A DNA stretch of 64,000 bases from Ecdyonurus torrentis (Eukaryota > Arthropoda > Insecta > Ephemeroptera > Heptageniidae). Each line of letters opens with the position of its first letter. The first letter of the stretch is position 1. This document shows positions 7,139-61,181 of this stretch, in pieces. Position numbers and translations under genes: made by a program. Below the pieces are notes generated by a model. That model made no database searches. It saw nothing but the letters and a program-made list of their open reading frames with translations, and was not told the DNA's origin. The DNA is taken from contig OX439132.1 in the NCBI GenBank assembly GCA_949318235.1, positions 6,948,534 to 7,012,533 on the forward strand, written 5' to 3'.

Positions 7139-7144
7139 TATAGT
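7139..7144. repeat. Left 6-bp target site duplication (TATAGT)
   Basis: TATAGT lies directly outside the left terminus of the giant inverted repeat and is identical, in the same orientation, to 21854-21859 just outside the right terminus. The match begins exactly where the inverted symmetry stops, which supports both the element boundary and insertion as a unit. Confidence 0.85.
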
Positions 7145-7195
7145 AGTAGTCTATAATCACCGATAGAACGTGTGCTTATAAAACATGCTTATAAA

Positions 7196-7557
7196 ACATG
7201 GGTGTGGCCTATTTTCTATAATTTATAAAACCAATGGTGAAGGTAATTTTTTTCGATGTTTTATAAAACCGGGGGCGTGGCCTGTTTTCTATGATTTATG
7301 AAACCAGTAGTGGGGGTAAATTCTTCGATGTTTTATAAAACCAGTGGTGGGGGAAATTTTTTGATGTTTTATAAAACCAGTGTTTGGGGAATTTTTTTTA
7401 TTTAATGTTTTATAAAACTAGTGTTGGGGGAAAATTTTTAATGTTTTATAAAACCAGTGGCTAGGGAAATTTTATCGAGGTTTTACGAGCAATACCGACT
7501 GAAACCGAGTGACCTTAACCAGTGGTGGGGGTAAATTTCTCGAAGTTTTATAAAACC
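7196..7557 (+). repeat. Subterminal tandem repeats, left arm
   Basis: At least seven degenerate units of about 35-40 bp share the core GTTTTATAAAACCAGTGG followed by a G run and AAATTTT. Good copies start near 7255, 7327, 7361, 7404 and 7442, with divergent ones near 7220, 7291 and 7514. Clustered short repeats just inside a transposon end are often transposase-binding sites, for example in foldback and hAT elements; that role is inferred here. The mirror array is at 21441-21802. Confidence 0.8.
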
Positions 7558-8601
7558 ATGTTAATAAAAAGGGGACGGGGGGAAGAAATTGCCTCGTCAC
7601 AAAAGAGCGAGGGAAATATTTTAAAGAAAAATATATTTGTTAATTCATATTTTATTATTGGTCCGATTTATGGCTATTATATGACCGATTTATGTATATA
7701 TTATGACCAATTTATAAATATTTTTATATGAATGATTAAAAATGATAAAAAGTGGCTTTATAAATTTTAATTGTACGATTAATGATTATTTTTTGTTCAC
7801 TTATGATAAGATAATTTGCTGCCTGCTAAAATGGCTGCGATACTAGGTAGAAATTTACCATGCGAGCGGAGTGAACACACGTGTGCGCTCACCTCACTTT
7901 CGCCACACACACCAGCCCATTCCTGAGTAAAAAAAAAATAATAAAATTGGCAATATATATTTTTGGCGGGAAAGTGAATTACCGAATGACCCCGAGCAAT
8001 ATCGAATGAAACCGAGTGACCTGAATTGCTAAATCTAGAAGAACGTAACGAGCGTGTGTGCTCTCCATCTACTCTTCCGACTGACTGCCAAAAGTGCCAG
8101 CATGTAAGCGCGAAGTGCGTTTTTGGTAATATACTAAAGCAATTTTCGCGGGAAAGCTAATTACCGACTTACCACGAGCAGTACAGATAAAAGCCGAGTT
8201 TAGCTAGGTATGAATAAATCATAAATAACGGTAAAATATATTTAGGTCAACATTCAGCAAGTCTACACAAGTTCAACTTCGCCCTGTAACGGTATTCACG
8301 TCTACTTAACCAATGCAGAGTCTGATGCTAGAGATACGGATACGATTATTTACTTACATCAATGGGTATTGTTTTGCAGAAGGTTTTCAAACAAAAGTTT
8401 GGTTAGCTAGAGGGTTGGAGTATCAATGGTGCAATGGTGTTTTTTTGTGATAAATGTCTTTTTAAGTATTTCTGGTTGGAGAGTTTACTTAACAGTGACT
8501 GCCCAACCCTTTGTACTTTAGAGCTGGTCACAATTTATGTAATAAGGTCACTTGTTAATTACCGAAATATCACGAGCACTATCGATGAAAGCCGAATGAT
8601 G
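7485..8601 (+). repeat. Four copies of a ~29-bp GAGCA...CCGAGTGACC motif, left arm
   Basis: Copies lie at about 7485-7514, 7992-8021, 8174-8200 and 8572-8601. They share the pattern CGAGCANTAYCGANTGAAA then RCCGA. Three are preceded by AATTACCGA, and two of those by GCGGGAAAG. The spacing is irregular, so this is a dispersed rather than tandem repeat. It is mirrored at 20397-21513. No function is known to me. Confidence 0.65.
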
Positions 8602-8633
8602 TCAATCGTTGTAAATTATGTATGAATAAAGCA
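7522..8633 (+). other. Subterminal region without a supported gene
   Basis: Short open frames of 63-69 codons at 7522 and 8434 are mirrored in the right arm simply because the DNA is palindromic. They have no recognisable domain, and the first overlaps the subterminal repeats, so I do not call them genes. Confidence 0.6.
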
Positions 8634-8636
8634 ATG

Positions 8637-8861
8637 AAGCTGAAGATAACGTAAGGTAGCGACTGCACATTTCGTGCATTTTTTCCGCATTTGACCGACC
8701 GCCAAGATCTATTTCCGGTAAAATTTCAACTTTTTTTTAAAAAAAATACACACGATAATATTTTCCCGCCACCAAAACGTGAAAAATACCGGAAATAAGG
8801 AATTAAATCTTGCAACAGACGCACGAAATGCGCAGTCACTTCCTTAGGTTATCTTCAGCTT
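8637..8861 (+). mobile_element. Nested foldback MITE, left-arm copy
   Basis: The left end AAGCTGAAGATAAC is repeated inverted at the right end, and the similarity continues for about 45 bp through GTAAGG, GACTGC and CATTTCGTGC with a few mismatches. The 225-bp body contains TTTCCGGTA motifs in both orientations. No clear target duplication is seen. An identical copy at 20137-20361 in the other arm shows that it was present before the arms were duplicated. Confidence 0.65.
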
Positions 8862-8879
8862 TGTTGGAATAAAGTATAA

Positions 8880-10330
8880 GTAACTGTAAAATAGATTAAG
8901 TTCAAGGTTTTAACAAGACTACACAAGAGTAGCGCTTGCCTGCTTGTAAATAAAAAAAAAACATTTATCAAAAAGATGAAAAAATTTGAGATACAAAAAT
9001 TTGAATATCAAAAAAGAAAAGAGAAGGTTCGAAAAGTTTAAAAAAGGTATAAGAAAGGTTCAGAACATTAAACAGTTTTTTACCTGTAAAAAAATTATAA
9101 TTATATATTAAATTCATAGACTATGGACCTTATAAACAATAATTTATTGACAATATAAATTTGCTATGCACGTGTGCATTCACTTTCTGATTCTACTTAA
9201 GCCTGTACATGTCATGACATGTTTGTGATAATTGTGTTAGAGTCACCTGTTTAAAGCCACAAACTTATTTGGATAAAAAAGCTTAAAGATTTTAAAATTT
9301 TAGATTCAAAAACTTTTCTATCCAAAAACGTTTAGATTTAAAAGTTTTCAGATTCAAAAGTTTTTAAATAAAATGAATTATAAAAAAATATATTAAAAGG
9401 AAAAATGTAAAGTACAAAAATGTAAACAGCAAAAATTTAAAAAAGTGATAATAAATATAGTATAAATTACCCTAAAAGGTTTTCAATTATTTATTTCAAG
9501 GACAAATGAACAAATTTTAAACTAAGATGTACTAGTTTATACAAGTTTAGACATGTTTAAAACACTACTTTGACATGTTCAGACATGTATAAGTCTGTTC
9601 AAAGTTGTTACGTGCTTTCGTAGGTGTGCATGTCTTTTGATTTTGTTATCTTAACACAAAAATGCAGACACCTCTCCTTATTATATTGTGTGACGGTTTA
9701 AGCACTTCTTTTTTTGTTCAATGTTGTTGATGAGATTTGAGTACAATGAATTATACCTAAATAAATTTTGATGCGTATACCGTGACTGGTAGGTTCTTAC
9801 TGAGATTTTTATCATATGTTCCTTAAATGGTTTGTTTAGTAGTTTCAAGGGTTGTTCGCATTCCCGCCGCTGTCGCTATCCATGCCACCGCAGCAAACCT
9901 TTTAACTTGACGTAGTTACACCTATTATCTCACTTATTTTTTTGTGAGACTTCGGAAATTCTTATACATTTAACTTTTGTAAGTTTAATGTCTTACTAAC
10001 ATTTTTTTTTTTTTGCTTTACGCTATTTAAAATAAATATATAAATGAAACTATGACTTTTTATAGTTTATACTAAAGTATAAACCATCGTAAAAGTTCTT
10101 TTTTTTTTAGATTAAGGTTTTAACCAGTCTGCACAAGTCCTGTGCTATCCTACATTTTAAGAGCAGATAGCCGATATAGGACTTTTTTTTTTACCAACGT
10201 TCAACTATACCTTACTTTTTATGTCACAAAAAAGGGGGTGGAGAAGTTCAAAGTGACCACTTGGTAGTTTTCTGAAACGACTATGACCTAATTACTACAT
10301 TATTGTTACGAGAAAGGCAGGTAGTCAATA
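8880..10330 (+). other. Arm interior without a supported gene
   Basis: AT-rich sequence with low-complexity AAAATTTAAA patches, a 16-bp palindrome ACATGTCATGACATGT near 9207, recurrent ACATGT words around 9540-9595 and a brief GC-rich patch near 9865-9897. No open frame of note. It is mirrored at 18668-20118. Confidence 0.6.
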
Positions 10331-10440
10331 CAAGACCCTACATCAGAGTTGCATAAAAGTTTAGATGGGGTAGCGGAACCAAATTTCAGGAAACTTTTAA
10401 GCAGCTTTTAAGGAAATATTACTTAAAAACTGCTTAGCCA

Positions 10441-10985
10441 GAGTTGCAAGACTCAAGAATCTACATTAAAGATAGTGACGCGCCGATTTTGGTATCCGGT
10501 TTTGGCCACCGCGAAATATTTGAATTGCTGTGCAATCAAATAGCACGGCCAAAAACGACACTAGCGCCACCTGGTGGTAAAACTGTGAAACTCCTATGCT
10601 CTAACACGGATCGCAGTTATACATGGAACCAATGGGTGTGACTATATCTTGTTTCTAGCATCTTGGTAAGACTTAGTTAGACTTATTTTTGTGTTTTGCT
10701 GACTGCAGACGCGCTAGAGTTGCAAGACTCAAGATTCTACATTCAAGATAGCAACGTGCCAATTTTTGTATCCGGTTTGGGCCAACGCGAAATATTTGAA
10801 ATGCTGTGCAATCAAATAGCACGGCCCAAGACGACAATAGCGGCCACTGGTGGAAAAACTGTGCAGGTTCTATGCTTTAACATGGGCCGCCGTTATACAT
10901 AGAATCAATGGACGTCACTATCTTGTAGCCAGCATCTTGGCAAGACTTGGTTAGACTTACTTTTGAGGCTCCACTTAACTTTTAA
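10441..10985 (+). repeat. 276-bp tandem duplication, left arm
   Basis: Two diverged units start at about 10443 and 10719 (period 276). Both begin GTTGCAAGACTCAAGA and contain GAAATATTTGAA, TGCTGTGCAATC, AAATAGCACGGCC and GCATCTTGG. Both keep one frame open for about 60 codons, with residues such as REIFE, LCNQIARPKTT and GGKTV in common; the second unit meets a TAG near its end. Many differences between units change the amino acid, so coding is not established. I do not recognise the peptide. Mirrored at 18013-18557. Confidence 0.75.
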
Positions 10986-10999
10986 AACAATGTCCACTA

Positions 11000-11620
11000 T
11001 GTTGTAGAAAATGTCTCACTATTAAGACTTTTTTGTTGGCGTTAACCTAGAGTTACTTTTTATACAAAGAAACCTAGGAACAAGAGACCATATTACAAGA
11101 CGTATATTTTTGAGGGTAACTTATTGTCTCCATCACAAGCCTATAGCCCCACGTTCACTCTCACCGCAATGTTAAACTTTCGGGTATCTTTCTAAACCTC
11201 TATATTGACCAAACATTTCAACTACGACCCCTTGAATGTTTCTGTTGACCATTTTCATATTTTGTTATTTATCTTTATCATTAGAAATATTCTTGTATGT
11301 TTAAAAAGAAAAAAAATTATAAAGAATTATAATACATATTAAATTATAAAAAATATAAATAAAAATTTGAACAGAATTTGAAATTTAAAAATTAATATTT
11401 TGTCTTTAAGGAATTCAAAATGTATGATTAACTATGCATAATTTAAAGTCACCTTATATTAAAAAAATACAATTTAAACAAAATGCACCCTGCTTTAAGA
11501 ACGTTGTGTATAAAATTGGTGAGATTTGGTAACCTGCGAGATATGGTACCGTACCAGACCAAATGTAAAAACAATTTAATAATTAAAAAAATCAACTGGT
11601 TCTTTAATACAGAACTATAG
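11000..11620 (+). other. Arm interior, non-coding
   Basis: AT-rich sequence with no notable open frame and no repeat that I could resolve. It links the 276-bp and ~405-bp tandem arrays. Confidence 0.5.
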
Positions 11621-12370
11621 TAAAAAATTCAAGCATTTCTTAAATTTATACACCAAAAAAGTATTCAAAACTGTAAAAGAAAAACCATTCTTTAAAAAGT
11701 AAGAACCAATTAACAAACCTAACAACCAAACAACCGACCAACTAACCTTTAGTTGCTTAAAAATAAATTTAAAAACCTAAAATATAAAATAATAATTAAA
11801 AAGCTTGAAAAAAAAGTTATTTACTACACAAAAGTACAATAATAAAAATACTTTATAAAAAAACTTATCTAAACTGGAAAACAGTTTACATAATTACAAA
11901 GCTGCATCTTACCTGTCTTTCAAGTAAAAATTTATTGTAAAAACAATGAGAAATATAAGAGACAAAAATTAAAAGATCAAATAAAAAAGAGAAGGTTAGA
12001 AAAGTTTAAAAAATGTAAAATAAATATTCAAGCATTTCATAAATTCATACACCAAAAAAGTATCCAAAACTGTAAAAGAAAAACCATTCTTTAAAAAATA
12101 AGAACCAATCAACAAACCTAACAACCAAACACTTAACCAACCAACCGACCAACTAACCTTTAGTTGATTAAAAAATAAATTTAAAAACTTAAAATATAAA
12201 ATAATAATTCAAAAGCTAGAAAAAAATTTATTTATTAAACAAAAGTACAATAAGAAATACTTCATTAAAAAATCTTATCTAAACTAGAAAACACTTTACA
12301 TAATTACAAAGCTGCAACTACCCTGTCTTTCAAGTAAAAATTTATTGTAAATACTATGACAAATGTGAGG

Positions 12371-12372
12371 TA
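12371..12372. repeat. TA target duplication, left side of mariner-like insertion
   Basis: TA precedes CAGCTCTGG. The same TA follows the element at 13871-13872, and a single TA at 16626-16627 marks the empty site in the other arm. Confidence 0.9.
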
Positions 12373-13870
12373 CAGCTCTGGCCAAAAGTTTGAGAACGAT
12401 TTGAAATGCAACCCGCAACACAAATCATGTAAACAAGCAAGTTCCCTTTTTCCTGACTATATCGGTGTAGCGATTACGATTATTTTGAGCACAGCCAGGC
12501 AGCAAGCAAGCAGACGTGTGTCTCTCATGCTTGCTTGCAGAATTTACCTTTCTATATAGCTTGTATTCAATAGTTCTGTTGACTACAAAATACTTTAGTT
12601 TTGCTATGCATTTTTGCTAAGTATTTTATAATATTCTGTCACTCAATTTTTCGTTATAAATAACATACTATTTTATACCAAATAAAATTTTATTGTTTTG
12701 CATATTATTTTAAGTATATTTTTTTAATTATTGATTTTATTTTTACAATAAATACAAATTGTTTTAATATCTAATATATCATTTATTATATAATTATGAT
12801 TAATTAATTATATTAAGTCATTACTAGCTATTTTTTTATTTACTTAAATAAATGGCAAAAAAAAAAAAATAAATAAATAAAGATTGTTAATGTGAAAAAT
12901 AATAATTATATAAAGTTAAATGCTAAAGATGACAAAGAAATAAAATCATACGATGTCTAGCTGTATAATATAATAGTTTTAATAAAATATAGTTCCAAAT
13001 TTTTAATTGCGCAACGATAAATACAAACAATTTGTCTTATTTATTTTGATCATTTTTACAAATTATTCAGAATAGCATAATATTATAATTATTAAAAAAT
13101 ATGTTACTTTTGCAATTGAATAAATTAAGTTTCTAATTATTTCTGATTTTTGTATATGGATTTATTAGTAAAGAAAGGAACACGAATATTTGTTCTTTTT
13201 ACTTTTCTTCTTTTCTATTGATTTTTACATCCTGAAATTTACTCTTTATAAAAAATGCATTAATGTATAAAATAAATTATATGTAACAAATTATTATTTA
13301 TTATTAAAAAATTAAACTCTTTTGCAATAAAAAAATTAAAATTAATAAATAGAAAAAGAGACAAAATAATAAGATTTATTCAAAATTGCTAATTAATTAA
13401 AATATTAATTTATTCTTGTTATTTAATTTTTTCATTCATTCATTCATTCATTCATTCATTCATTCATTCATTCATTCATTCATTCATTCATTCATTCATT
13501 CATTCATTCATTCATTCATTCATTCATTTCTTTCTTTTTTTTTTAAATTTTTTTACATTTTTTATTTTTACTTCATGTGAGACCTAGATATTATGAATAC
13601 ATAATAATTATATTTTATATAATATAAAACTCAAGCAGACAATATTCTGTGAGTTTCATACGTAAAAATAAAAATCACATCCTGTGGTATTGTTTGATCA
13701 AAAGTCATGATAACAAAACTAGACACAACAGATAGCCAAACATAAAGGAGGAGGTGAGGGGAAAGATGCACATACTATCGATATAGTCAGGAAAAAAGGA
13801 ACTTGCATTGATGACTCATCTGTTTTGCCCGATCACTTTCATATCGTTCTCAAACTTTTGGCCAGAGCTG
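12373..13870. mobile_element. Tc1/mariner-like non-autonomous element, left arm only
   Basis: The ends are CAGCTCTGGCCAAAAGTTTG and its inverted counterpart, and the similarity extends with interruptions for about 100 bp to a shared CTGACTATATCG. A TA duplication flanks the element. The mirrored position in the right arm reads straight across one TA, so the 1498-bp insertion is directly proven by its empty site. No transposase frame is present; the longest open frame near the left end is about 60 codons. The interior is AT-rich and carries a long (CATT)n run. Tc1/mariner membership rests on the TA target and the terminal sequence. Confidence 0.93.
13431..13528. repeat. (CATT)n microsatellite inside the mariner-like element
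   Basis: About 24 uninterrupted tetranucleotide units. Found only in the insertion, hence only in the left arm. Confidence 0.95.
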
Positions 13871-14545
13871 TACAATAACTTAAAAATATAAAAAAAGAAA
13901 AAAGAGTAGGTTAGAAAAAATTAAAAAAAGGTATATTAAATTTTCAAGCAATTCATAAATTTATACACCAAAAAAGTATACAAAACTGTAAAAGGAAAAA
14001 CATTCTTTAAAAAATAAGAGCCAATTAACCAACAACCCTAACAACCAAACACTTAACCAAACAACTAACCTTTAGTTGTTTAAAAAATAAATTTAAAATC
14101 CTAAATTATAAAATAATAATTAAAAAGCTGAAAAAAAGCTATTTACTAAACACAAGAACATTAAAACAATTCTTCATAAAAAAAACTTACCTAAACTGGA
14201 AAACAGTTTACATATTTACAAAGCTGCATTTTTCCTGCCTTTCAAGTAAAAAGTTATTGTAAAAACAATAAAAAATGTGTTAGGTACAAATATTTAAACA
14301 TAAAAAAAGAAAAGGTTAGAAAAGTTTAAAAAAGGTATAATAAAATATTCAAACATTTCATTATTTATACAACAAAAAAGTATTGAAAAGTTAAAAACAA
14401 CCTTCTTTAAAAAATAAAAACCAACCAACAAAACTAACAACCTAACACTTAACCAACCAACCGATCAACCAACTAACCTTTCGTTGCTTAAAAAATAAAT
14501 TAAAAATCCTAAAATTCAAAATATTAATTAAAAAGCTAGTTCAGC

Positions 14546-15010
14546 TCAGATTGAATTGTCCCATTCAATGCAGATAAATTTGAATTACTTAATGTTCATT
14601 TCTGTAATATATTTTGTTGTTTATATTATATCATTAACTGCTCATTACACTGAGTATTAAATTTATTCTTTTACATAAACAATAATAATTAACTTTAATG
14701 AAAGAAATAAAACATATTAAATCGTAAAAAAATAGTGTTAGAGGTGGAAATATGTATAACACTGAAGGAAATTAAAGTCACAAAAAAATCAATAACCTGA
14801 AAAAAGAAAGGAAAATGTCTAAATTACAATCAAAACTACGGAAGACGAATTTGAACAATACTAGGAAAATTATGACCAACCATATGATCAATTACATTTT
14901 TCTGAACTTCAAAAATAGGAGAGGTTTAGAGAGGTACGGAAATTAAAAGAAAAATCAACAAATTACAGAAATGAAAAACAGTAAGAAATAATTAAAAAGA
15001 AATAAGGAGA
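14546..15010 (+). other. Inner arm, non-coding
   Basis: AT-rich unique-looking sequence between the ~405-bp array and the GC-rich inner boundary. It is mirrored at 15488-15952 and shows no open frame of note. Confidence 0.55.
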
Positions 15011-15035
15011 GGTAACCCTGATCCGGCAGCCGTGC

Positions 15036-15078
15036 CTCCCCGCCGCCGCCGCCGCCCCCGCCGCCGCCCCACACCGGT
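15036..15078 (+). repeat. GC-rich CCG run at left inner boundary
   Basis: A sharp shift from AT-rich DNA to CCG-type trinucleotides, ending in CACACCGGT where the inverted symmetry stops. Mirrored at 15420-15462. The composition differs strongly from the rest of the window. Confidence 0.85.
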
Positions 15079-15419
15079 TTTAAGTTTTTAAGCGTCTGGA
15101 CCTGCTGACGCACGGCGGGAGTTCTAAGTTTTTAAACGTCTGGACCCGCCTCTGCAAAGAGCCGCTTCTAAGTTTTTATTCGCGGCCGGACCTTAATTTG
15201 TTAACGCGTCCGGCTATCAACTTTAACCGCGCCGGATGTAACTTTTTTTACAAGTCCGGACCGCACCGGATCTAAATTTGTAAACGCGTCCGGCTATCAA
15301 TTTTTAACCGCGCCGGATCTAACATTTTTACACGTCCGGACCGCACCGGATCTAAATTTGTAAACGTGTCCGGCTATCAACTTTTAACCGCGCCGGATCT
15401 AACTTTTTTATACGTCCGG
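15079..15419. other. 341-bp central spacer of the palindrome
   Basis: Not part of the inverted repeat. It consists of three units of a 44-bp repeat beginning TAAGTTTTTA (15081, 15125, 15169), followed by an 80-bp tandem repeat. It is CpG-rich, with many TCCGGAC, CGCGCCGGAT and ACGCGTCC words. No coding frame is evident. Confidence 0.85.
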
Positions 15420-15425
15420 ACCGGT
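15193..15425. repeat. 80-bp CpG-rich tandem repeat, three units
   Basis: Units start at 15193, 15273 and 15353 with an exact 80-bp period; the third is cut by the ACCGGT boundary. Each has TTTGTAAACGCGTCCGGCTA-like sequence, AACCGCGCCGGAT and GTCCGGACC. The array lies at the hinge of the palindrome. Confidence 0.9.
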
Positions 15426-15952
15426 GTGGGGCGGCGGCGGGGGCGGCGGCGGCGGCGGGGAGGCACGGCTGCCGGATCAGGGTTACCTCTCCTTATTTCT
15501 TTTTAATTATTTCTTACTGTTTTTCATTTCTGTAATTTGTTGATTTTTCTTTTAATTTCCGTACCTCTCTAAACCTCTCCTATTTTTGAAGTTCAGAAAA
15601 ATGTAATTGATCATATGGTTGGTCATAATTTTCCTAGTATTGTTCAAATTCGTCTTCCGTAGTTTTGATTGTAATTTAGACATTTTCCTTTCTTTTTTCA
15701 GGTTATTGATTTTTTTGTGACTTTAATTTCCTTCAGTGTTATACATATTTCCACCTCTAACACTATTTTTTTACGATTTAATATGTTTTATTTCTTTCAT
15801 TAAAGTTAATTATTATTGTTTATGTAAAAGAATAAATTTAATACTCAGTGTAATGAGCAGTTAATGATATAATATAAACAACAAAATATATTACAGAAAT
15901 GAACATTAAGTAATTCAAATTTATCTGCATTGAATGGGACAATTCAATCTGA

Positions 15953-17371
15953 GCTGAACTAGCTTTTTAATTAATATTTTGAATTTTAGGATTTTTAATT
16001 TATCTTTTAAGCAACGAAAGGTTAGTTGGTTGATCGGTTGGTTGGTTAAGTGTTAGGTTGTTAGTTTTGTTGGTTGGTTTTTATTTTTTAAAGAAGGTTG
16101 TTTTTAACTTTTCAATACTTTTTTGTTGTATAAATAATGAAATGTTTGAATATTTTATTATACCTTTTTTAAACTTTTCTAACCTTTTCTTTTTTTATGT
16201 TTAAATATTTGTACCTAACACATTTTTTATTGTTTTTACAATAACTTTTTACTTGAAAGGCAGGAAAAATGCAGCTTTGTAAATATGTAAACTGTTTTCC
16301 AGTTTAGGTAAGTTTTTTTTATGAAGAATTGTTTTAATGTTCTTGTGTTTAGTAAATAGCTTTTTTTCAGCTTTTTAATTATTATTTTATAATTTAGGAT
16401 TTTAAATTTATTTTTTAAACAACTAAAGGTTAGTTGTTTGGTTAAGTGTTTGGTTGTTAGGGTTGTTGGTTAATTGGCTCTTATTTTTTAAAGAATGTTT
16501 TTCCTTTTACAGTTTTGTATACTTTTTTGGTGTATAAATTTATGAATTGCTTGAAAATTTAATATACCTTTTTTTAATTTTTTCTAACCTACTCTTTTTT
16601 CTTTTTTTATATTTTTAAGTTATTGTACCTCACATTTGTCATAGTATTTACAATAAATTTTTACTTGAAAGACAGGGTAGTTGCAGCTTTGTAATTATGT
16701 AAAGTGTTTTCTAGTTTAGATAAGATTTTTTAATGAAGTATTTCTTATTGTACTTTTGTTTAATAAATAAATTTTTTTCTAGCTTTTGAATTATTATTTT
16801 ATATTTTAAGTTTTTAAATTTATTTTTTAATCAACTAAAGGTTAGTTGGTCGGTTGGTTGGTTAAGTGTTTGGTTGTTAGGTTTGTTGATTGGTTCTTAT
16901 TTTTTAAAGAATGGTTTTTCTTTTACAGTTTTGGATACTTTTTTGGTGTATGAATTTATGAAATGCTTGAATATTTATTTTACATTTTTTAAACTTTTCT
17001 AACCTTCTCTTTTTTATTTGATCTTTTAATTTTTGTCTCTTATATTTCTCATTGTTTTTACAATAAATTTTTACTTGAAAGACAGGTAAGATGCAGCTTT
17101 GTAATTATGTAAACTGTTTTCCAGTTTAGATAAGTTTTTTTATAAAGTATTTTTATTATTGTACTTTTGTGTAGTAAATAACTTTTTTTTCAAGCTTTTT
17201 AATTATTATTTTATATTTTAGGTTTTTAAATTTATTTTTAAGCAACTAAAGGTTAGTTGGTCGGTTGTTTGGTTGTTAGGTTTGTTAATTGGTTCTTACT
17301 TTTTAAAGAATGGTTTTTCTTTTACAGTTTTGAATACTTTTTTGGTGTATAAATTTAAGAAATGCTTGAAT
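15953..17371 (-). repeat. ~405-bp tandem array, right arm (intact)
   Basis: Mirror of the left-arm array, uninterrupted, with three full units and one partial unit. The reverse-strand runs of GGTTAGTTGG, TCGGTTGGTTGG and TTGGTTGTTAG mark the middle of each unit. Confidence 0.85.
16626..16627. other. Empty insertion site (single TA)
   Basis: The mirrored position of the left-arm mariner-like insertion. The sequence reads TTATTGTACCTCACATT with one TA and no element. Confidence 0.9.
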
Positions 17372-18012
17372 TTTTTACTATAGTTCTGTATTAAAGAACC
17401 AGTTGATTTTTTTAATTATTAAATTGTTTTTACATTTGGTCTGGTACGGTACCATATCTCGCAGGTTACCAAATCTCACCAATTTTATACACAACGTTCT
17501 TAAAGCAGGGTGCATTTTGTTTAAATTGTATTTTTTTAATATAAGGTGACTTTAAATTATGCATAGTTAATCATACATTTTGAATTCCTTAAAGACAAAA
17601 TATTAATTTTTAAATTTCAAATTCTGTTCAAATTTTTATTTATATTTTTTATAATTTAATATGTATTATAATTCTTTATAATTTTTTTTCTTTTTAAACA
17701 TACAAGAATATTTCTAATGATAAAGATAAATAACAAAATATGAAAATGGTCAACAGAAACATTCAAGGGGTCGTAGTTGAAATGTTTGGTCAATATAGAG
17801 GTTTAGAAAGATACCCGAAAGTTTAACATTGCGGTGAGAGTGAACGTGGGGCTATAGGCTTGTGATGGAGACAATAAGTTACCCTCAAAAATATACGTCT
17901 TGTAATATGGTCTCTTGTTCCTAGGTTTCTTTGTATAAAAAGTAACTCTAGGTTAACGCCAACAAAAAAGTCTTAATAGTGAGACATTTTCTACAACATA
18001 GTGGACATTGTT
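17372..18012 (-). other. Arm interior, right arm, non-coding
   Basis: Mirror of the left-arm stretch between the two tandem arrays. No gene is visible. Confidence 0.5.
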
Positions 18013-18557
18013 TTAAAAGTTAAGTGGAGCCTCAAAAGTAAGTCTAACCAAGTCTTGCCAAGATGCTGGCTACAAGATAGTGACGTCCATTGATTCTATG
18101 TATAACGGCGGCCCATGTTAAAGCATAGAACCTGCACAGTTTTTCCACCAGTGGCCGCTATTGTCGTCTTGGGCCGTGCTATTTGATTGCACAGCATTTC
18201 AAATATTTCGCGTTGGCCCAAACCGGATACAAAAATTGGCACGTTGCTATCTTGAATGTAGAATCTTGAGTCTTGCAACTCTAGCGCGTCTGCAGTCAGC
18301 AAAACACAAAAATAAGTCTAACTAAGTCTTACCAAGATGCTAGAAACAAGATATAGTCACACCCATTGGTTCCATGTATAACTGCGATCCGTGTTAGAGC
18401 ATAGGAGTTTCACAGTTTTACCACCAGGTGGCGCTAGTGTCGTTTTTGGCCGTGCTATTTGATTGCACAGCAATTCAAATATTTCGCGGTGGCCAAAACC
18501 GGATACCAAAATCGGCGCGTCACTATCTTTAATGTAGATTCTTGAGTCTTGCAACTC
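18013..18557 (-). repeat. 276-bp tandem duplication, right arm
   Basis: Mirror of 10441-10985, with both short open frames preserved on the minus strand (18357-18554 and 18096-18302). Confidence 0.75.
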
Positions 18558-18667
18558 TGGCTAAGCAGTTTTTAAGTAATATTTCCTTAAAAGCTGCTTA
18601 AAAGTTTCCTGAAATTTGGTTCCGCTACCCCATCTAAACTTTTATGCAACTCTGATGTAGGGTCTTG

Positions 18668-20118
18668 TATTGACTACCTGCCTTTCTCGTAACAATAATG
18701 TAGTAATTAGGTCATAGTCGTTTCAGAAAACTACCAAGTGGTCACTTTGAACTTCTCCACCCCCTTTTTTGTGACATAAAAAGTAAGGTATAGTTGAACG
18801 TTGGTAAAAAAAAAAGTCCTATATCGGCTATCTGCTCTTAAAATGTAGGATAGCACAGGACTTGTGCAGACTGGTTAAAACCTTAATCTAAAAAAAAAAG
18901 AACTTTTACGATGGTTTATACTTTAGTATAAACTATAAAAAGTCATAGTTTCATTTATATATTTATTTTAAATAGCGTAAAGCAAAAAAAAAAAAATGTT
19001 AGTAAGACATTAAACTTACAAAAGTTAAATGTATAAGAATTTCCGAAGTCTCACAAAAAAATAAGTGAGATAATAGGTGTAACTACGTCAAGTTAAAAGG
19101 TTTGCTGCGGTGGCATGGATAGCGACAGCGGCGGGAATGCGAACAACCCTTGAAACTACTAAACAAACCATTTAAGGAACATATGATAAAAATCTCAGTA
19201 AGAACCTACCAGTCACGGTATACGCATCAAAATTTATTTAGGTATAATTCATTGTACTCAAATCTCATCAACAACATTGAACAAAAAAAGAAGTGCTTAA
19301 ACCGTCACACAATATAATAAGGAGAGGTGTCTGCATTTTTGTGTTAAGATAACAAAATCAAAAGACATGCACACCTACGAAAGCACGTAACAACTTTGAA
19401 CAGACTTATACATGTCTGAACATGTCAAAGTAGTGTTTTAAACATGTCTAAACTTGTATAAACTAGTACATCTTAGTTTAAAATTTGTTCATTTGTCCTT
19501 GAAATAAATAATTGAAAACCTTTTAGGGTAATTTATACTATATTTATTATCACTTTTTTAAATTTTTGCTGTTTACATTTTTGTACTTTACATTTTTCCT
19601 TTTAATATATTTTTTTATAATTCATTTTATTTAAAAACTTTTGAATCTGAAAACTTTTAAATCTAAACGTTTTTGGATAGAAAAGTTTTTGAATCTAAAA
19701 TTTTAAAATCTTTAAGCTTTTTTATCCAAATAAGTTTGTGGCTTTAAACAGGTGACTCTAACACAATTATCACAAACATGTCATGACATGTACAGGCTTA
19801 AGTAGAATCAGAAAGTGAATGCACACGTGCATAGCAAATTTATATTGTCAATAAATTATTGTTTATAAGGTCCATAGTCTATGAATTTAATATATAATTA
19901 TAATTTTTTTACAGGTAAAAAACTGTTTAATGTTCTGAACCTTTCTTATACCTTTTTTAAACTTTTCGAACCTTCTCTTTTCTTTTTTGATATTCAAATT
20001 TTTGTATCTCAAATTTTTTCATCTTTTTGATAAATGTTTTTTTTTTATTTACAAGCAGGCAAGCGCTACTCTTGTGTAGTCTTGTTAAAACCTTGAACTT
20101 AATCTATTTTACAGTTAC
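18668..20118 (-). other. Arm interior, right arm, non-coding
   Basis: Mirror of 8880-10330. No gene is visible. Confidence 0.5.
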
Positions 20119-20136
20119 TTATACTTTATTCCAACA

Positions 20137-20361
20137 AAGCTGAAGATAACCTAAGGAAGTGACTGCGCATTTCGTGCGTCTGTTGCAAGATTTAATTCCT
20201 TATTTCCGGTATTTTTCACGTTTTGGTGGCGGGAAAATATTATCGTGTGTATTTTTTTTAAAAAAAAGTTGAAATTTTACCGGAAATAGATCTTGGCGGT
20301 CGGTCAAATGCGGAAAAAATGCACGAAATGTGCAGTCGCTACCTTACGTTATCTTCAGCTT
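20137..20361 (-). mobile_element. Nested foldback MITE, right-arm copy
   Basis: Exact mirror of 8637-8861, with ends AAGCTGAAGATAAC in inverted orientation. Confidence 0.65.
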
Positions 20362-20396
20362 CATTGCTTTATTCATACATAATTTACAACGATTGA

Positions 20397-21513
20397 CATC
20401 ATTCGGCTTTCATCGATAGTGCTCGTGATATTTCGGTAATTAACAAGTGACCTTATTACATAAATTGTGACCAGCTCTAAAGTACAAAGGGTTGGGCAGT
20501 CACTGTTAAGTAAACTCTCCAACCAGAAATACTTAAAAAGACATTTATCACAAAAAAACACCATTGCACCATTGATACTCCAACCCTCTAGCTAACCAAA
20601 CTTTTGTTTGAAAACCTTCTGCAAAACAATACCCATTGATGTAAGTAAATAATCGTATCCGTATCTCTAGCATCAGACTCTGCATTGGTTAAGTAGACGT
20701 GAATACCGTTACAGGGCGAAGTTGAACTTGTGTAGACTTGCTGAATGTTGACCTAAATATATTTTACCGTTATTTATGATTTATTCATACCTAGCTAAAC
20801 TCGGCTTTTATCTGTACTGCTCGTGGTAAGTCGGTAATTAGCTTTCCCGCGAAAATTGCTTTAGTATATTACCAAAAACGCACTTCGCGCTTACATGCTG
20901 GCACTTTTGGCAGTCAGTCGGAAGAGTAGATGGAGAGCACACACGCTCGTTACGTTCTTCTAGATTTAGCAATTCAGGTCACTCGGTTTCATTCGATATT
21001 GCTCGGGGTCATTCGGTAATTCACTTTCCCGCCAAAAATATATATTGCCAATTTTATTATTTTTTTTTTACTCAGGAATGGGCTGGTGTGTGTGGCGAAA
21101 GTGAGGTGAGCGCACACGTGTGTTCACTCCGCTCGCATGGTAAATTTCTACCTAGTATCGCAGCCATTTTAGCAGGCAGCAAATTATCTTATCATAAGTG
21201 AACAAAAAATAATCATTAATCGTACAATTAAAATTTATAAAGCCACTTTTTATCATTTTTAATCATTCATATAAAAATATTTATAAATTGGTCATAATAT
21301 ATACATAAATCGGTCATATAATAGCCATAAATCGGACCAATAATAAAATATGAATTAACAAATATATTTTTCTTTAAAATATTTCCCTCGCTCTTTTGTG
21401 ACGAGGCAATTTCTTCCCCCCGTCCCCTTTTTATTAACATGGTTTTATAAAACTTCGAGAAATTTACCCCCACCACTGGTTAAGGTCACTCGGTTTCAGT
21501 CGGTATTGCTCGT
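20397..21513 (-). repeat. Four copies of the ~29-bp motif, right arm
   Basis: Mirror of the left-arm copies. On the plus strand the motif reads GGTCACTCGGTTTCA then TCGGTATTGCTCG. Confidence 0.65.
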
Positions 21514-21802
21514 AAAACCTCGATAAAATTTCCCTAGCCACTGGTTTTATAAAACATTAAAAATTTTCCCCCAACACTAGTTTTATAAAACATTAAATAA
21601 AAAAAATTCCCCAAACACTGGTTTTATAAAACATCAAAAAATTTCCCCCACCACTGGTTTTATAAAACATCGAAGAATTTACCCCCACTACTGGTTTCAT
21701 AAATCATAGAAAACAGGCCACGCCCCCGGTTTTATAAAACATCGAAAAAAATTACCTTCACCATTGGTTTTATAAATTATAGAAAATAGGCCACACCCAT
21801 GT
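21441..21802 (-). repeat. Subterminal tandem repeats, right arm
   Basis: Mirror of 7196-7557, with cores reading CCACTGGTTTTATAAAAC on the plus strand. Confidence 0.8.
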
Positions 21803-21853
21803 TTTATAAGCATGTTTTATAAGCACACGTTCTATCGGTGATTATAGACTACT

Positions 21854-21859
21854 TATAGT
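21854..21859. repeat. Right 6-bp target site duplication (TATAGT)
   Basis: Direct repeat of 7139-7144, immediately outside AGACTACT. Confidence 0.85.
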
Positions 21860-25622: not shown

Positions 25623-26891
25623 GGTTTATTGATAATACAATATTCTATAGATTAACCTCTATTTAAAAGTAGGGCATATTGTTTTAAAGACACCATAGTA
25701 TATTTAATGCTATCATAAATATTATTATTTATAATAAAAGGGTATATTCTCCCCCATCCCTTACCAGAAAGCACTTTTCATAGACTTATGAAATGTTGGG
25801 ATTTTGAACAGATGTTGTTTTCAGTGTTCACTTCTATATATAAAAATATATATGGAGAATGGTGTATCATTTCAGAGTTTACCGTTCTGTTGCATTATGT
25901 ATTACGTATATTTATTTTTATCTGCAAAATTATTATAGCCAAATGCCAATTTTTTAACTTTTTTTCTTTTAAAAGAATATCAATAAATCTAAATTTTTTT
26001 ATTGTTGTTTTATTGCATATTTAGAACAAATTTGATACTATATTATAGGCATTATAGGCAATTTAAAAATAGCGAATAAAAAATAGGTTTCAGTGTAATT
26101 GTTTCCCTGATAAGTATACATTTTTACACTTTTTGTTTTGGAAATCATACGTTCATTTAAAAAAAAAAAAAAAAAAAAAGTTGATATTTTAGGAAAAGTG
26201 TCGTCTTGTGTTACATTACATACCCTTAGCTCTATGATGAAAACAACTGTAAGTAAACTAATATTAAGGTATTAACAATATATTGCCATTTCTTTCTCTT
26301 TTTCTTTTATGACAAAAGTAGCAAATATTTAGGGGAAAAAAATGAGACAATTTACGAAAAATATTCCCTAAAGCATTCTTTTACTTTTAGAATTGTAGCC
26401 ATGTCTTTTATAAAAGTTGATTACAAAAATCTTGTTATTTTCTTTGAAGGTTGTGAAAAAGAAAGAAAGAAAGAAAATCCTTAGTGTGACTGATATTCTA
26501 TACGACACGAAACATCGTTAGTATTCTTGGAAAACTTTTCTACCAGTTTTATATATAACTTTAAGACTTGAAGATTAAAATCTTAATAAAGTCACTTTGT
26601 TGGGTTCTCACGAAAATTACATTGTGTAATAATTATCAAGTCACTTTGTGTGTTTTCGGTCTAGCCGCATGCAAATATTGTGTAAAATGGTATATTGTCA
26701 AAGGAACTAAGATTTGCAAAGTAATTTTGTGTAAATACTGTATATAGATTTTGCAAGCTTGCGTGATTTCACACTCACTTCGTATGTGAATTTATTATGA
26801 ATCATAATTATCATAAATAATGTTTATCGTGAAAGCTAAAATTATATTACAATTTATATTTATACGAAAATTATACTTTCATTTTATTTAA

Positions 26892-27210
26892 AGGAATAGA
26901 CCAGAAGAAAACATTTAGCTTTTATATCACAAAACACGTGATGTAAACAACATTAGTTTGTCTCAAACATCAACAATAGTGCCGTAGCAGTGATCAGAAT
27001 ATTTCAACTCATGCAACCCGCACAGCATTTTCATGCTAATTTTTTTACGGTTTCTGACGTCAGAAACATACAACTAGTATACTTTATAGTATATTTTCAC
27101 GCTCCCTTGTGGGGCCACATTAATATTCAGATAAAAATGATCATCAGTTTTGGAGATCCCATGTTGTGTTTAATCATTAACAAGAACACGTTTTCATGTG
27201 GTCTATTGCT
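26892..27210 (+). mobile_element. TTAA MITE family, copy A
   Basis: Begins AGGAATAGACCAGAAG after TTAA (26888-26891) and ends TGTGGTCTATTGCT; the right TTAA is mutated. The interior carries the family landmarks TATCACAAAACAC, GTTTGTCTCAAA, CATGCAACCC, GCACAGCATTTT, TTTCTGACGTCAGAAACA, TCACGCTC and GTTTTGGAGATCCCAT. It is 319 bp and non-coding; the open frame over it is a shadow of the repeat. The TTAA target is shared by piggyBac and Kolobok elements, so the parent superfamily is open. Confidence 0.9.
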
Positions 27211-27288
27211 TTTCACTTTTTTGATTTTTTCATAATTTTATAAGTAAATATATAAGCTAATTGATAAGAAAAAAAAATTTCATAAATA

Positions 27289-29411
<2,123 letters not shown>

Positions 29412-29415
29412 TTAC

Positions 29416-29756
29416 CTTTCATCCATTCGAAATCCACTGAGATCACTCCATGCACTCATACTACGTGCACGACCAGACGGTTGCCGAAGTGGTGATTTAT
29501 TTTCTGTAGCTGATGGCACTTGATGATGAAAACTAACTCTAAAATTTCTAGGAGATTGAGCACCAACCTCCTCATCATTTTTTAGCATTTTATACCAACC
29601 CCAACCTCTTTTTAACTTATATGCACTACCCCCACCCTTAGCACCTGGGGCGGGGGTAACTGTTACCCTAGGTAAATCATCATCATCATCTATTTCGTCA
29701 TCCCCTGATAGTTCTGCAACCCCCCCAAGATGACCTTCTTCATTATACCCCTCCAC
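29416..29756 (-). CDS. Probable protein-coding exon, product unidentified (partial)
   Basis: The best coding candidate in the window. The minus-strand frame is open for ~114 codons with a composition unlike the AT-rich background. It has Gly and acidic residues first, a cluster DDEIDDDDD (about residues 19-27), a Pro/Thr/Gly stretch, then KLKRGWGWYKMLKNDEE, and a basic, Ser-rich end with SPRNFRVSF, RQPSGRARSMSAW and DLSGFRMDE. The frame runs into a donor AAAG|GTAATA (GT at 29414-29415), so the exon should end at 29416 in phase 2. The left limit is uncertain: the frame opens from a stop near 29777 with no in-frame ATG and no good acceptor; 29756 is a GTG. It looks like a low-complexity N-terminal or linker segment of a larger protein; I recognise no family. 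Confidence 0.6.
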
Positions 29757-29759
29757 AAT

Positions 29760-30600
29760 TAATTTGTTAATGTCATTTTATTAGTTTAAATAATTGTTTA
29801 TAATTACGTACATTAACACTTTATTTATTTATTATTATTATTATTTTTTACTTATATTTCATGTGATATTAATACAATATTTATTTTTACTTTTTGAATG
29901 AAATTGTGTCACGAGATTGTCAACAACTGTTTATTTTTATTGATTACCTAGTAAATTTCCATTCACTATATAAAGTACCTGTGTGCTTTTTTTATCTCTA
30001 CCTTATTTACCAATTCACATTTCTTTCCCACTTGTCTGTGTAAAATACTTTTAACACTTTATAATTTTCTTCTCACTATAAAGATATGGTGTTGATTTAA
30101 TTATTAATTAAAGATTAATTACGAGATAATATTAATATTAAATGTGTAGTGTCATTGAAATTTTTTTCATTTTAATAATCTCCTGGATATATTTTAAAAA
30201 AAGAAGAAGTGAAATATTAATGAATATTATATGAGTATAGCATAAATGTTGTTTTAATTCTAAGGGACAATTTTCATTAAATTTCTTCTAAAATTCTTCT
30301 TAAGGATTAAGTGTAAGTGTTCTAAAAGACACTAAAAAATAAAGAAGAAGAAAAAAAATAACACTTATTAATATTTATTTTTTAACACTTATAAAAAAAA
30401 AAATAAAAAATATAAACACCAACTAGCAAGAAAGAAGAGAGAAAATACTATATATTATTTTTCTTGTGTGAAACACTTAAGATAGAAGAAGATGATAGAT
30501 TATAGAGAAAAGCACTACTAAGTACGTACACATAACAATACACAACACTGTAAACTATTGAAGAGTTTTTAGATATTATGTCATGCATGCACCAAAAACA
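29760..30600. other. AT-rich stretch upstream of the minus-strand exon
   Basis: No open frame of note; GAAGAA-rich and A-rich words lie around 30190-30360. If the exon is real this is probably its upstream intron or 5' region. Confidence 0.4.
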
Positions 30601-38453: not shown

Positions 38454-38645
38454 ACATTTTGTGTTTGTACTTTGTATGTACATCAAGATTATAGATTTTA
38501 TTACGTTCATGACTTTTACAGTGCAGAACATGTCACATTACAAACACAAATACTTAATATTAAAATATAATAATACTAATAAAACATTTTACTGTTCATT
38601 GGTGACAAGAAAATAATTGATATTATAAAACATTTTTTCTATTAA

Positions 38646-38982
38646 AGCCATATAGACCACATAAAACAACATGTGCTTTTTAATGAATAAACACGAAATA
38701 GGATCTTCAAAACTGATGACAATTTTTACCAGAATGTTAATGTAGCCCCACGAGAGAGAGTGAAAAAACTGTAAAGTATGCAATTTAAGTGACTATTCAT
38801 GTTTATGACGTCAGAAACATGCAAAAACTAGTATGAAAATGTTGTGCGGGTTGCATAAATTGAATTTTCTTATCACTGCTACGGGGCTACTGTTGGGTTT
38901 TGAGACAAACTAATGTTATTTATGTAAATCCCATCAAGTGTTTTGTGATATAAATTCTTATGTTTTTCTCTGGTCTATTTCT
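38646..38982 (-). mobile_element. TTAA MITE family, copy B
   Basis: Reverse orientation. It begins AGCCATATAGACCACAT after TTAA (38642-38645) and ends CTGGTCTATTTCT before TTAA (38983-38986). The interior repeats the family landmarks in reverse, including GACGTCAGAAACATGC, TGTTGTGCGGGTTGCAT and TGTTTTGTGATATAAAT-like words. 337 bp with an intact duplication. Confidence 0.95.
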
Positions 38983-39282
38983 TTAAATATTCTTGCAACT
39001 TAGTTGCAACGTAAATATTGTTGAAAAAATAAAATATTGTTTGTAATGTAATGTTTCATTCAAAAAATTATTTTAATATTTTTATATAATAAAAAGACAG
39101 GGATTAAATAAAGTAAACAACAATAACAACGCTTAAGCATATTTTTCACAATTAAAATTATTTGTACCGGATTAAAATTTTATTCGATATTTAACTAAAA
39201 AAAAGTTGTTTATTTTATTTCTGTTTGTAAAGAAAAGCACACGATAAATAAGACTACACAAGTAGCAATAAAAATCAACCTA

Positions 39283-53240: not shown

Positions 53241-53245
53241 CTTAA

Positions 53246-53606
53246 AGGAATAGACTAGAACAAAACATTATATAGCATTGGTATCACAAAACACTTAATG
53301 GGACTTACATAAATATAACATTATACTGTAGTGTGTCGTCTCCAAACTCAACTGTAGCGCCGTAGCAGTGCGCAAAAAAATTTGAGTTATGCAACCCGAT
53401 CAACATTTTTATACTAATTTCTGCCTGTTCGTGACGCCAGAAACAGAAAATAGTCATGCAAACAGCATACTTTACAGTATTTACACGCTCTCTTGTGGGG
53501 ACACATTAATATTCTGACAAAAATTTTCATCGATTTTGGAGATCTCATTTTGTGTTAAGTCATTAAAAAGCACAATAATTTATGTTGTTTAATTTGGTCT
53601 ATGGCT
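53246..53606 (+). mobile_element. TTAA MITE family, copy C
   Basis: Begins AGGAATAGACTAGAAC after TTAA (53242-53245) and ends TTTGGTCTATGGCT before TTAA (53607-53610). It contains the landmarks TATCACAAAACACTTAATGG, GTAGCGCCGTAGCAGTG and CGCTCTCTTGTGGGG. 361 bp, the longest copy. Its internal TGACGTCA is mutated to TGACGCCA. Confidence 0.95.
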
Positions 53607-53664
53607 TTAACTAAAAATTTAAAATTGCTTTATTTTCCATACTGTACGGTACGTAGTATCTGTT

Positions 53665-59935: not shown

Positions 59936-60225
59936 TACATATGTTAGCAACGTCACTCAGCTTCAAGAGTGTTAGAGTTGCATGGACCTGTCACCTGTCA
60001 TGCAAAATAATATAGAGAATTTATATTTACATATCATCTTTTTGTTAATGCATCGCATATCATGCAGTGTGTGAGAAAAAAAAAAGGTCATTGTGTGAAA
60101 AACCACACTTGTTTATAAGTGGTTGTTAAGTTGTGGTGGGCAATGTGAGGAGAATTTAAGATTTTATATAGACTGGTCATTTGAAATTGAAAAAATAAAA
60201 GCTATACTACCATATTAAATGTTAA

Positions 60226-60544
60226 AATCATAGACCACATGAAACATGTACTTTATAATGATTATAAACACAAAGGGGATCTTCAAAACTGGTGACAATT
60301 TTTAACCAAAATGGAAAAAATGAACCCACAAGAGAGTGTATAAAAACTTTAATGAATGTGTGACTATTCCTATTTCTGACGTCAGGAACAATCAGAAATT
60401 AGTTTGAAAATGTTGTGCGGGTTGCATAAGTTGACATTTTCTCATCACTGCTACGGCGGCTTTGAGACATACTAACGTTATTTATGTAAGCAGCATCAAG
60501 TGTTTTGTGATATAAATGCTAATATTTTTTCTTTGTCTATTCCT
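60226..60544 (-). mobile_element. TTAA MITE family, copy D
   Basis: Reverse orientation. Begins AATCATAGACCACATG after TTAA (60222-60225) and ends TTTGTCTATTCCT before TTAA (60545-60548). Landmarks include ATCTTCAAAACTGGTGAC, TTTCTGACGTCAGGAAC and TTGTGCGGGTTGCATAAG. 319 bp. Confidence 0.93.
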
Positions 60545-60842
60545 TTAATCTTATATATTATAATAGTAAGAGAGAAAAAGAAAATTCACAAATTTTGTTG
60601 TACATATAACCTCGTTATGCGCTTATTCAACACAATGTTTTATTATTGGATTCTACTGTTTGTTTGTTTGTCGCAGCATTTTTTTAATATGTTTTTACTA
60701 CCCTTGGAGTTAAGTTATTTCTCAAGTGGATAAAATTGTTGTACAGCATATTTGAAACAATATAGTAAACTATTCAATCTATTCTATCCGTACGGGGAAA
60801 TATTACGTAAGCATTATGATTATATACTACAGTAAAACTTAA

Positions 60843-61177
60843 AGGCATAGACCAGAGAAAAACATAAGCACTTATATCACAAAACACTTGATGGGACTTA
60901 CATAAATAACATTAGTTTGTCTCAAAACCCAACAGTAGCCCCGTAACAGTGATCAGAAAATTCGATTTATGCAACCCACACAACATTTTTATACTAATTT
61001 TAGCATGTTTCTGACGTCATAAACATGAATTTACACGCAAATTGCATACTTTACAGATTTTTCACGCTCTCTCGTGAGGCTACATTAACATTCTGGTAAA
61101 AATTGTCATCAGTTTTGAAGATCCCATTTCGTGTTTATTCATTAAAAAGCACATGTTGTTTTATGTGGTCTATGGCT
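60843..61177 (+). mobile_element. TTAA MITE family, copy E (best-preserved ends)
   Basis: Begins AGGCATAGACCAGAG after TTAA (60839-60842) and ends TGTGGTCTATGGCT before TTAA (61178-61181). All family landmarks are present, including TTTCTGACGTCATAAACATG. 335 bp. It lies about 300 bp from copy D in the opposite orientation, so the two together form a large inverted pair. Confidence 0.95.
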
Positions 61178-61181
61178 TTAA

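Follow-up and report, generated by a model that had tools for sequence, protein, structure and literature searches.

Palindromic non-coding elements with Polinton-type ends in the genome of the mayfly Ecdyonurus torrentis

Foldback elements, such as Drosophila FB and Galileo, consist of long, repeat-filled inverted arms around a short middle, with arms that are heterogeneous and usually shorter than those considered here. Chromosomal palindromes, for example those of the Y chromosome, have near-identical arms and a short spacer, and undergo gene conversion between the arms. Polintons (also termed Mavericks) are virus-like, self-synthesising DNA transposons, and the established view is that protein-primed strand displacement is their mode of replication. 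Among vertebrate Mavericks, (AGT)2//(ACT)2 is described as the most frequent end motif, accompanied by perfect 6-bp target duplications (PMC8097293), and the duplication length listed for Polintons is 6 bp, versus 4-5 bp in Ginger (PMC10045372). Snapback subgenomes of adeno-associated virus (AAV) are described as comprising either the left or the right moiety of the genome (PMC8235507). The subject of this report is a near-perfect palindromic mobile element with AGTAGT...ACTACT ends, found in a 64,000-nucleotide stretch of Ecdyonurus torrentis DNA (contig OX439132.1; hereafter the window, whose positions are used unless a contig is named), together with its relatives in the host genome.

The window element is probably a non-autonomous Polinton/Maverick derivative that would have arisen by inverted duplication of one end through snap-back synthesis and been mobilised in trans. 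Its family shares with Polintons/Mavericks the 6-bp duplication, the (AGT)2//(ACT)2 ends and the terminal inverted repeats; it differs in that polymerase, integrase and capsid genes are not detected, the inverted repeat is practically the whole element, and the arms are homogenised. Long repeat-filled arms and a short middle are features in common with foldback elements, from which the family is distinguished by duplication length, ends and superfamily. Y-type chromosomal palindromes, unlike the window family, are immobile and have neither a terminal motif nor a target duplication. The snapback (self-complementary) subgenomes of AAV, as presented in that account, are likewise self-folding, one-moiety inverted duplications of a linear genome, and need intact genomes; they belong to parvovirus particles and to the chemistry of hairpin inverted terminal repeats and Rep, whereas the palindromes considered here form a heritable dispersed family (PMC8235507). 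A literature search, with subscription literature mostly outside its coverage, returned no title or abstract start on palindromic or non-autonomous Polintons or on giant palindromic or foldback elements.

The window element and its family

Self-comparison of the window places the palindrome at 7145-21853, with TATAGT on the + strand at both flanks (7139-7144 and 21854-21859); symmetry ends precisely at these duplications, and the element reads AGTAGT...ACTACT. An earlier note on this DNA, made from the sequence alone, had given the same limits, ends and duplication, all of which proved exact. It had also described two 6434-bp arms and a 341-bp spacer: the arms do have this length, with one mismatch (arm position 5850), once a 1498-bp insert that the note had missed is excluded. 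As assembled, the left arm (7145-15078, + strand) is 7934 bp long, made up of 6434 bp, the insert and a 2-bp TA duplication, and the right arm (15420-21853, - strand) has 6434 bp and terminates in ACTACT. The outermost 5230 bp of the arms are identical (7145-12374 versus 21853-16624). The central spacer (15079-15419) is asymmetric, has a GC content of 0.48 and contains ~80-bp direct repeats.

The insert occupies 12373-13870 in the left arm, has 28-bp perfect inverted ends (CAGCTCTGGCCAAAAG) and is bounded by TA on both sides (12371-12372 and 13871-13872); the right arm represents its empty site. We classify it provisionally as a non-autonomous Tc1/mariner-like element, on the basis of the TA duplication and the end sequence (CAGCTCTGGCCAAAAGTTTGAGAACGAT). 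Its presence in one arm shows that the two arms were assembled as distinct sequences.

The window element has no evident gene as far as tested, in keeping with what the earlier note had claimed. Its longest stop-to-stop frame, 119 amino acids (aa), is within the shuffle range for the window arm; a Pfam scan of its six frames (ten single frames scanned in all) gave sub-cutoff matches only; and 11 protein queries from two host elements had no match at E<=0.1 in the 22 arms of non-coding copies. Neither an Rfam nor a tRNA scan of the window gave a match, and the 26-base terminus had none in viral contigs. Frames of 182-183 aa in copies C8a and C8c exceed shuffles but are only 36-bp repeats read as 12 codons; C21b has a 132-aa frame longer than those of most shuffles (2 of 100 reach that length). 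The polB, integrase and capsid genes of Polintons are thus not found in these 22 arms of the non-coding palindromes, which are therefore not autonomous Polintons.

When the 503-Mb host assembly was searched (C1, C4, C8 and so on are contig labels of copies), the terminal 300 bp of the window element matched 91 places, corresponding to at least 21 loci spread over 12 contigs; with 40 of 58 candidates scored, these counts are lower bounds. At 19 of the 21 listed loci the matches form inverted pairs ~10-15 kb apart (23 kb in one case), and two loci have one listed side. The 23-kb span, at C1:15.7 Mb, was considered as a larger autonomous form and rejected, the extra length being a Gypsy element in one arm. 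The window element is one of about twenty related palindromic mobile elements.

Ten more copies were extracted whole, C21b among them including 490 masked bases. All 11 full copies, the window element included, are palindromic, with arms of 6.4-7.1 kb, spacers of 239-398 bp and a size, inserts aside, of 13.2-14.5 kb; inserts have lengthened the left arms of C8c (7.7 kb) and of the window element. A twelfth copy, on C20, is ~10 kb long and its arms have 2 mismatches in 4837 bp, and a thirteenth, the Gypsy-interrupted copy on C1, is palindromic across its central 2408 bp.

Target duplications were tested at 18 copies, all among the 21 terminus loci. AGTAGT is present at both ends of all 18, and also at the single end read of C12:27.38 Mb. 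Seventeen of the 18 copies have an exact duplication of 6 or 7 bp: TATAGT, TATATA (three copies), ATCCTG, TGTAAA, CTTGAA, CACCCC, TCTAGG, CTTAAG, TACGTG, TATGTA, GCTATG, AATATA, ATTATA, AGCATA and the 7-bp TGGTAAA. By hand calculation, a 6-bp flank match has a chance of p ~8e-4 given the base composition; chance is excluded for the window duplication because of this value and because exact duplications recur in 17 of 18 copies. The earlier note's suggestion of a possible family with 6-bp duplications is thus borne out, in that the ends are shared by other genomic copies and the duplication recurs with them, once as 7 bp only. The idea of a one-off inverted segmental duplication whose 6-bp flanks agree by coincidence is refuted by the same loci and duplications, and retains a practically negligible probability. 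The terminal inverted repeats (the 6.4-7.1 kb arms of the 11 copies), the 6-bp duplication and the (AGT)2//(ACT)2 end motif are all as in Polintons.

An assembly or read fold-back artefact is very improbable. Nearly 100% arm identity is typical of hairpin read artefacts, but the flanks differ between the two sides of the window element and the duplication sits exactly where symmetry ends; at the assembly level, the mariner-like insert in one arm alone, the asymmetric spacer and the agreement of many loci argue in the same direction.

A search with the window spacer, in which all 26 candidates were scored, gave 28 matches. These fall within 18 of the 21 terminus loci, among them C10, where the match is in several pieces, and C26:52.05 Mb, where it lies 6 kb from that locus's single listed end; six further loci are known by spacer match alone, and there are two 35-bp scraps. 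With all candidates scored, no match to the window spacer was found in C20, C4 or C12:27.38 Mb. The GC content of the spacers is 0.48-0.56, versus 0.27 for the window. In most of the family this GC-rich spacer is thus a conserved core. Its direct repeats, which contain CCGG, can be recognised in all three subfamilies, with 68-72% identity to the two distant ones, and perhaps point to a role for the core as such.

Polintons and polB palindromes of the host

The host genome has at least 105 matches to the Polinton polymerase (PF03175; 91 of 152 candidates scored) and at least 114 to the integrase (112 of 293 candidates scored), both counts including some fragments of one gene. At about C4:9.94 Mb lies an element whose open frames encode polymerase, integrase (rve and chromo), an adenovirus-type protease and other Polinton-like proteins, including putative capsid and ATPase proteins without a Pfam match. 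The reference Polinton used here is a 17-kb element at C11:5.461-5.478 Mb, which has AGTAGT ends and a GTTACT duplication; a 3.4-kb stretch read from its middle contains convergent polB and integrase genes. In four elements of this class the outer matches are 16,990-16,998 bp apart. The earlier note had proposed a non-autonomous relative of a large Polinton-like transposon, a proposal supported both by this element and by the motif given for vertebrate Mavericks (PMC8097293). It had also suggested looking for longer relatives that share the ends and encode a polymerase, integrase or transposase; the C11 element is such a relative in its ends and genes, with the end motif as the only sequence in common.

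The same terminal features occur on palindromes that carry polB. Among the listed polymerase matches there are five inverted polB pairs, ~4 kb apart, all enclosed by inverted end pairs 14.4-15.6 kb apart, except one at 20.8 kb, which is probably lengthened by an insert. Their ends are AGTAGATATAATGTGCCGG. Target duplications are exact in all four that can be tested (ACGACC, GTTCAA, CTAGAC and CATGTC), the flank of the fifth being masked. In the parts that were aligned, arm identity is 100% across 6320 bp in C17:21.66 Mb, 100% across 2327 bp in C4 and 99.9% across 1895 bp in C21, and the C4 and C21 palindromes are ~91% alike. The polB frames are 1385-1386 aa long in both arms of four pairs, and 1351 and 1110 aa in the fifth; the C17:21.66 Mb arm was read with one polymerase frame of 1382 aa. 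The spacers of the three that were read are ~0.7-1.2 kb long, asymmetric and unrelated to the window-family spacer, and one, as printed, is repeat-like.

Comparison with the C11 element suggests how such a palindrome could be built. The polymerases of the C17:21.66 Mb palindrome and the C11 element are 95.5% identical over 704 aligned residues. The DNA match between the two stops at L029:9466 (numbering of the C17 stretch), ~100 bp past the polB stop codon and ~110 bp before the asymmetric spacer (L029:9580); in the C11 element, a further ~180 bp separate this point from the 3' end of the convergent integrase gene. Because homology stops between polB and integrase near the hinge, the C17:21.66 Mb palindrome is best interpreted as two copies of the polymerase-side half of a Polinton, one in each arm. 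The same reading may apply to the other four polB palindromes, where it rests on gene position only. No inverted integrase pair is present among the 114 integrase matches listed.

Four non-coding palindrome loci (C4:9.899-9.914, C12:23.524-23.538, C12:27.376 and C12:36.200-36.214 Mb) lie within ~35 kb of a Polinton polymerase match, a nearness that appears to exceed expectation.

Further Polinton loci were considered. The C12:29.36 Mb group, a candidate for an integrase-only form, has polB and is not of that kind. The C1:44.91 Mb element is not a palindrome, its inverted repeat extending over ~1.24 kb only. This 12.1-kb Polinton-like element (C1:44912400-44924501) has a TTTATT duplication and repeats that are 100% identical over 300 bp and 98.9% identical over the next 940; with one polB match and no integrase match among the matches listed, it is possibly a polymerase-only, non-palindromic form. 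A Polinton end at C12:29370250-29370750 directly adjoins what we take by eye to be a host ferritin exon, an exon that points to an insect as host.

Origin and maintenance of the palindromes

The 11 full copies of the non-coding family form three subfamilies that are 82-86% identical to one another, values partly affected by misaligned tandem repeats. Comparison of the two arms within copies, with the spacer excluded, gives 49 differences in 72,288 bases (~0.07%); values of 98-99% identity arise when half of the asymmetric spacer is included. BLAST comparison of the arms gives 60 mismatches, a slightly higher count partly since some alignments extend into the flanks, and ~40 additional gap bases each in C8a and C8c. 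Substitutions private to one copy within its subfamily (outer 3.9 kb, 11 copies) number 339 in both arms versus 13 in one arm, or 249 versus 12 when C8c is left out; the 102 left/right differences counted in C8c come from misalignment around an indel within repeats, a region where BLAST gives 3 or 11 mismatches and ~40 gap bases. C26a and C29 have almost the same sequence, and their arm differences are as large as the difference between the copies. Divergent subfamilies with near-identical arms, together with private changes present in both arms, show that each lineage actively maintains or restores its palindromy. The Gypsy element in the C1 copy, whose long terminal repeats are identical over 1161 bp, is very young and gives no dating of the homogenisation.

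In the mechanism proposed for the Polinton-derived palindromes, protein-primed strand-displacement synthesis would switch onto its own displaced strand (snap-back), leading to an inverted duplication of one end; the AAV snapback genomes are a precedent from another virus (PMC8235507). The palindromic strand would pair with itself from end to end, and the resulting hairpin, with an intact terminus at its open side, could be copied again. A snap-back palindrome of this kind would have two good ends and fold over its whole length, so that each later round could copy one arm from the other; the second arm would be rebuilt from the first, and the arms would stay identical. Integrase provided in trans by ordinary Polintons would recognise AGTAGT and insert the DNA with a 6-bp staggered cut, nothing else being required for integration. 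The non-coding palindromes would represent a more ancient lineage of elements like those with polB. Such a snap-back model would explain palindromy, homogenised arms and the short unpaired spacer jointly. We infer hairpin replication of the palindromes and, from their ends and duplications, mobilisation by a Polinton integrase.

Non-autonomous DNA transposons usually shrink; most window-family copies keep 13-14 kb without genes, their palindromy preserved while the sequence drifts by 14-17%. These elements, although non-coding, have a fairly constant size that is not much smaller than a complete Polinton, which may reflect a limit on length set by packaging or replication. A broader proposal, offered tentatively and with somewhat less than even confidence, is that the Polintons of this host may spawn self-perpetuating palindromic satellites, either polymerase-only or geneless, through hairpin replication, arm rebuilding, integrase in trans and a size near that of packaging; these would correspond to the defective-interfering snap-back genomes of viruses, but in a heritable form dispersed in the genome. 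The palindromes provide a handle on whether Polintons replicate by protein-primed strand displacement, are packaged in size-limited particles and have virus-like defective-interfering satellites. Dispersed 13-kb palindromes on many chromosomes also matter for genome stability, for assembly and, if transcribed, for silencing by double-stranded RNA.

Several observations weigh against a Polinton origin by snap-back. Beyond AGTAGT, the non-coding terminus resembles none of the Polinton ends read, and neither the arms of the non-coding family nor, therefore, a parent of the non-coding palindromes were found in any Polinton sequence seen. The duplication of the C17 copy (TGGTAAA) fits as 7 bp only, that of the copy at C4:9.90 Mb matches at 5 of 6 positions, no AGTAGT was detected at the left terminus of the C1 copy, and three of the 17 exact duplications are TATATA, an easier match in AT-rich DNA. 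The ~10-kb C20 copy is contrary to the size argument. An origin by inverted duplication was examined by sequence in one polB palindrome only, and trans-mobilisation, a replication intermediate and a particle are postulated. Finally, arm-to-arm gene conversion on the chromosome would look the same in its homogenisation of the arms.

This last point is the basis of the strongest alternative, an unlikely but serious one, in which Polinton-derived palindromes have arms kept identical by chromosomal gene conversion after insertion, as in sex-chromosome palindromes, and not by hairpin replication. Gene conversion predicts the same pattern of substitutions in both arms, and a few persisting one-arm differences, as counted above for the 11 copies, would be expected between conversion events. 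It is at odds with the mariner-like insert in the left arm of the window element, which has been neither removed nor copied to the right arm; moreover, the exact duplications at 17 of 18 copies and the very young Gypsy, the one datable insert, suggest that the copies may be recent enough to require little conversion.

Membership of an unrelated non-autonomous superfamily (foldback or Mutator-like, Ginger2, IS3EU or Dada type), with coincidental 6-bp duplications, is improbable. The long repeat-filled arms recall foldback elements, and no coding remnant links the window arms to Polintons. Foldback and Mutator-like elements have ~9-bp duplications, versus 6 bp here. The termini given for Ginger2 are TGTNR (PMC2836005), versus AGTAGT here, and the combination of AGTAGT//ACTACT with a 6-bp duplication is common to the host element that has both polB and integrase and to the Mavericks of the published account (PMC8097293).

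Internal repeats and the rest of the window

Both arms of the window element contain several kinds of internal repeat. Sub-terminal tandem repeats with 36- and 73-bp units (TTTATAAAACCAGTGGTGGGGG) occupy 7189-7485 (+ strand) and are mirrored at 21513-21809; a pair of direct repeats of ~255 bp each, 84% alike, lies at 10437-10965 (+ strand), mirrored at 18033-18561; and 412-bp tandem repeats, which align poorly between subfamilies, fill 15959-17370 of the inner right arm and are mirrored in the left arm. Each arm also contains a 225-bp unit bounded by 41-bp inverted repeats that are 90% alike (in the left arm at 8637-8677 and 8821-8861); the unit is probably a small transposon of inverted-repeat type that was acquired long ago.

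Elsewhere in the window, a dispersed ~340-bp repeat is present in five copies on both strands (26885-27220, 38629-38989, 53241-53624, 60217-60548 and 60838-61198), 73-92% alike; it resembles a short interspersed nuclear element or a miniature inverted-repeat transposable element. A 121-aa open frame on the - strand at 29415-29777 has no Pfam match and is 50-53% identical to three metagenome proteins; it is probably an exon of a conserved animal gene.

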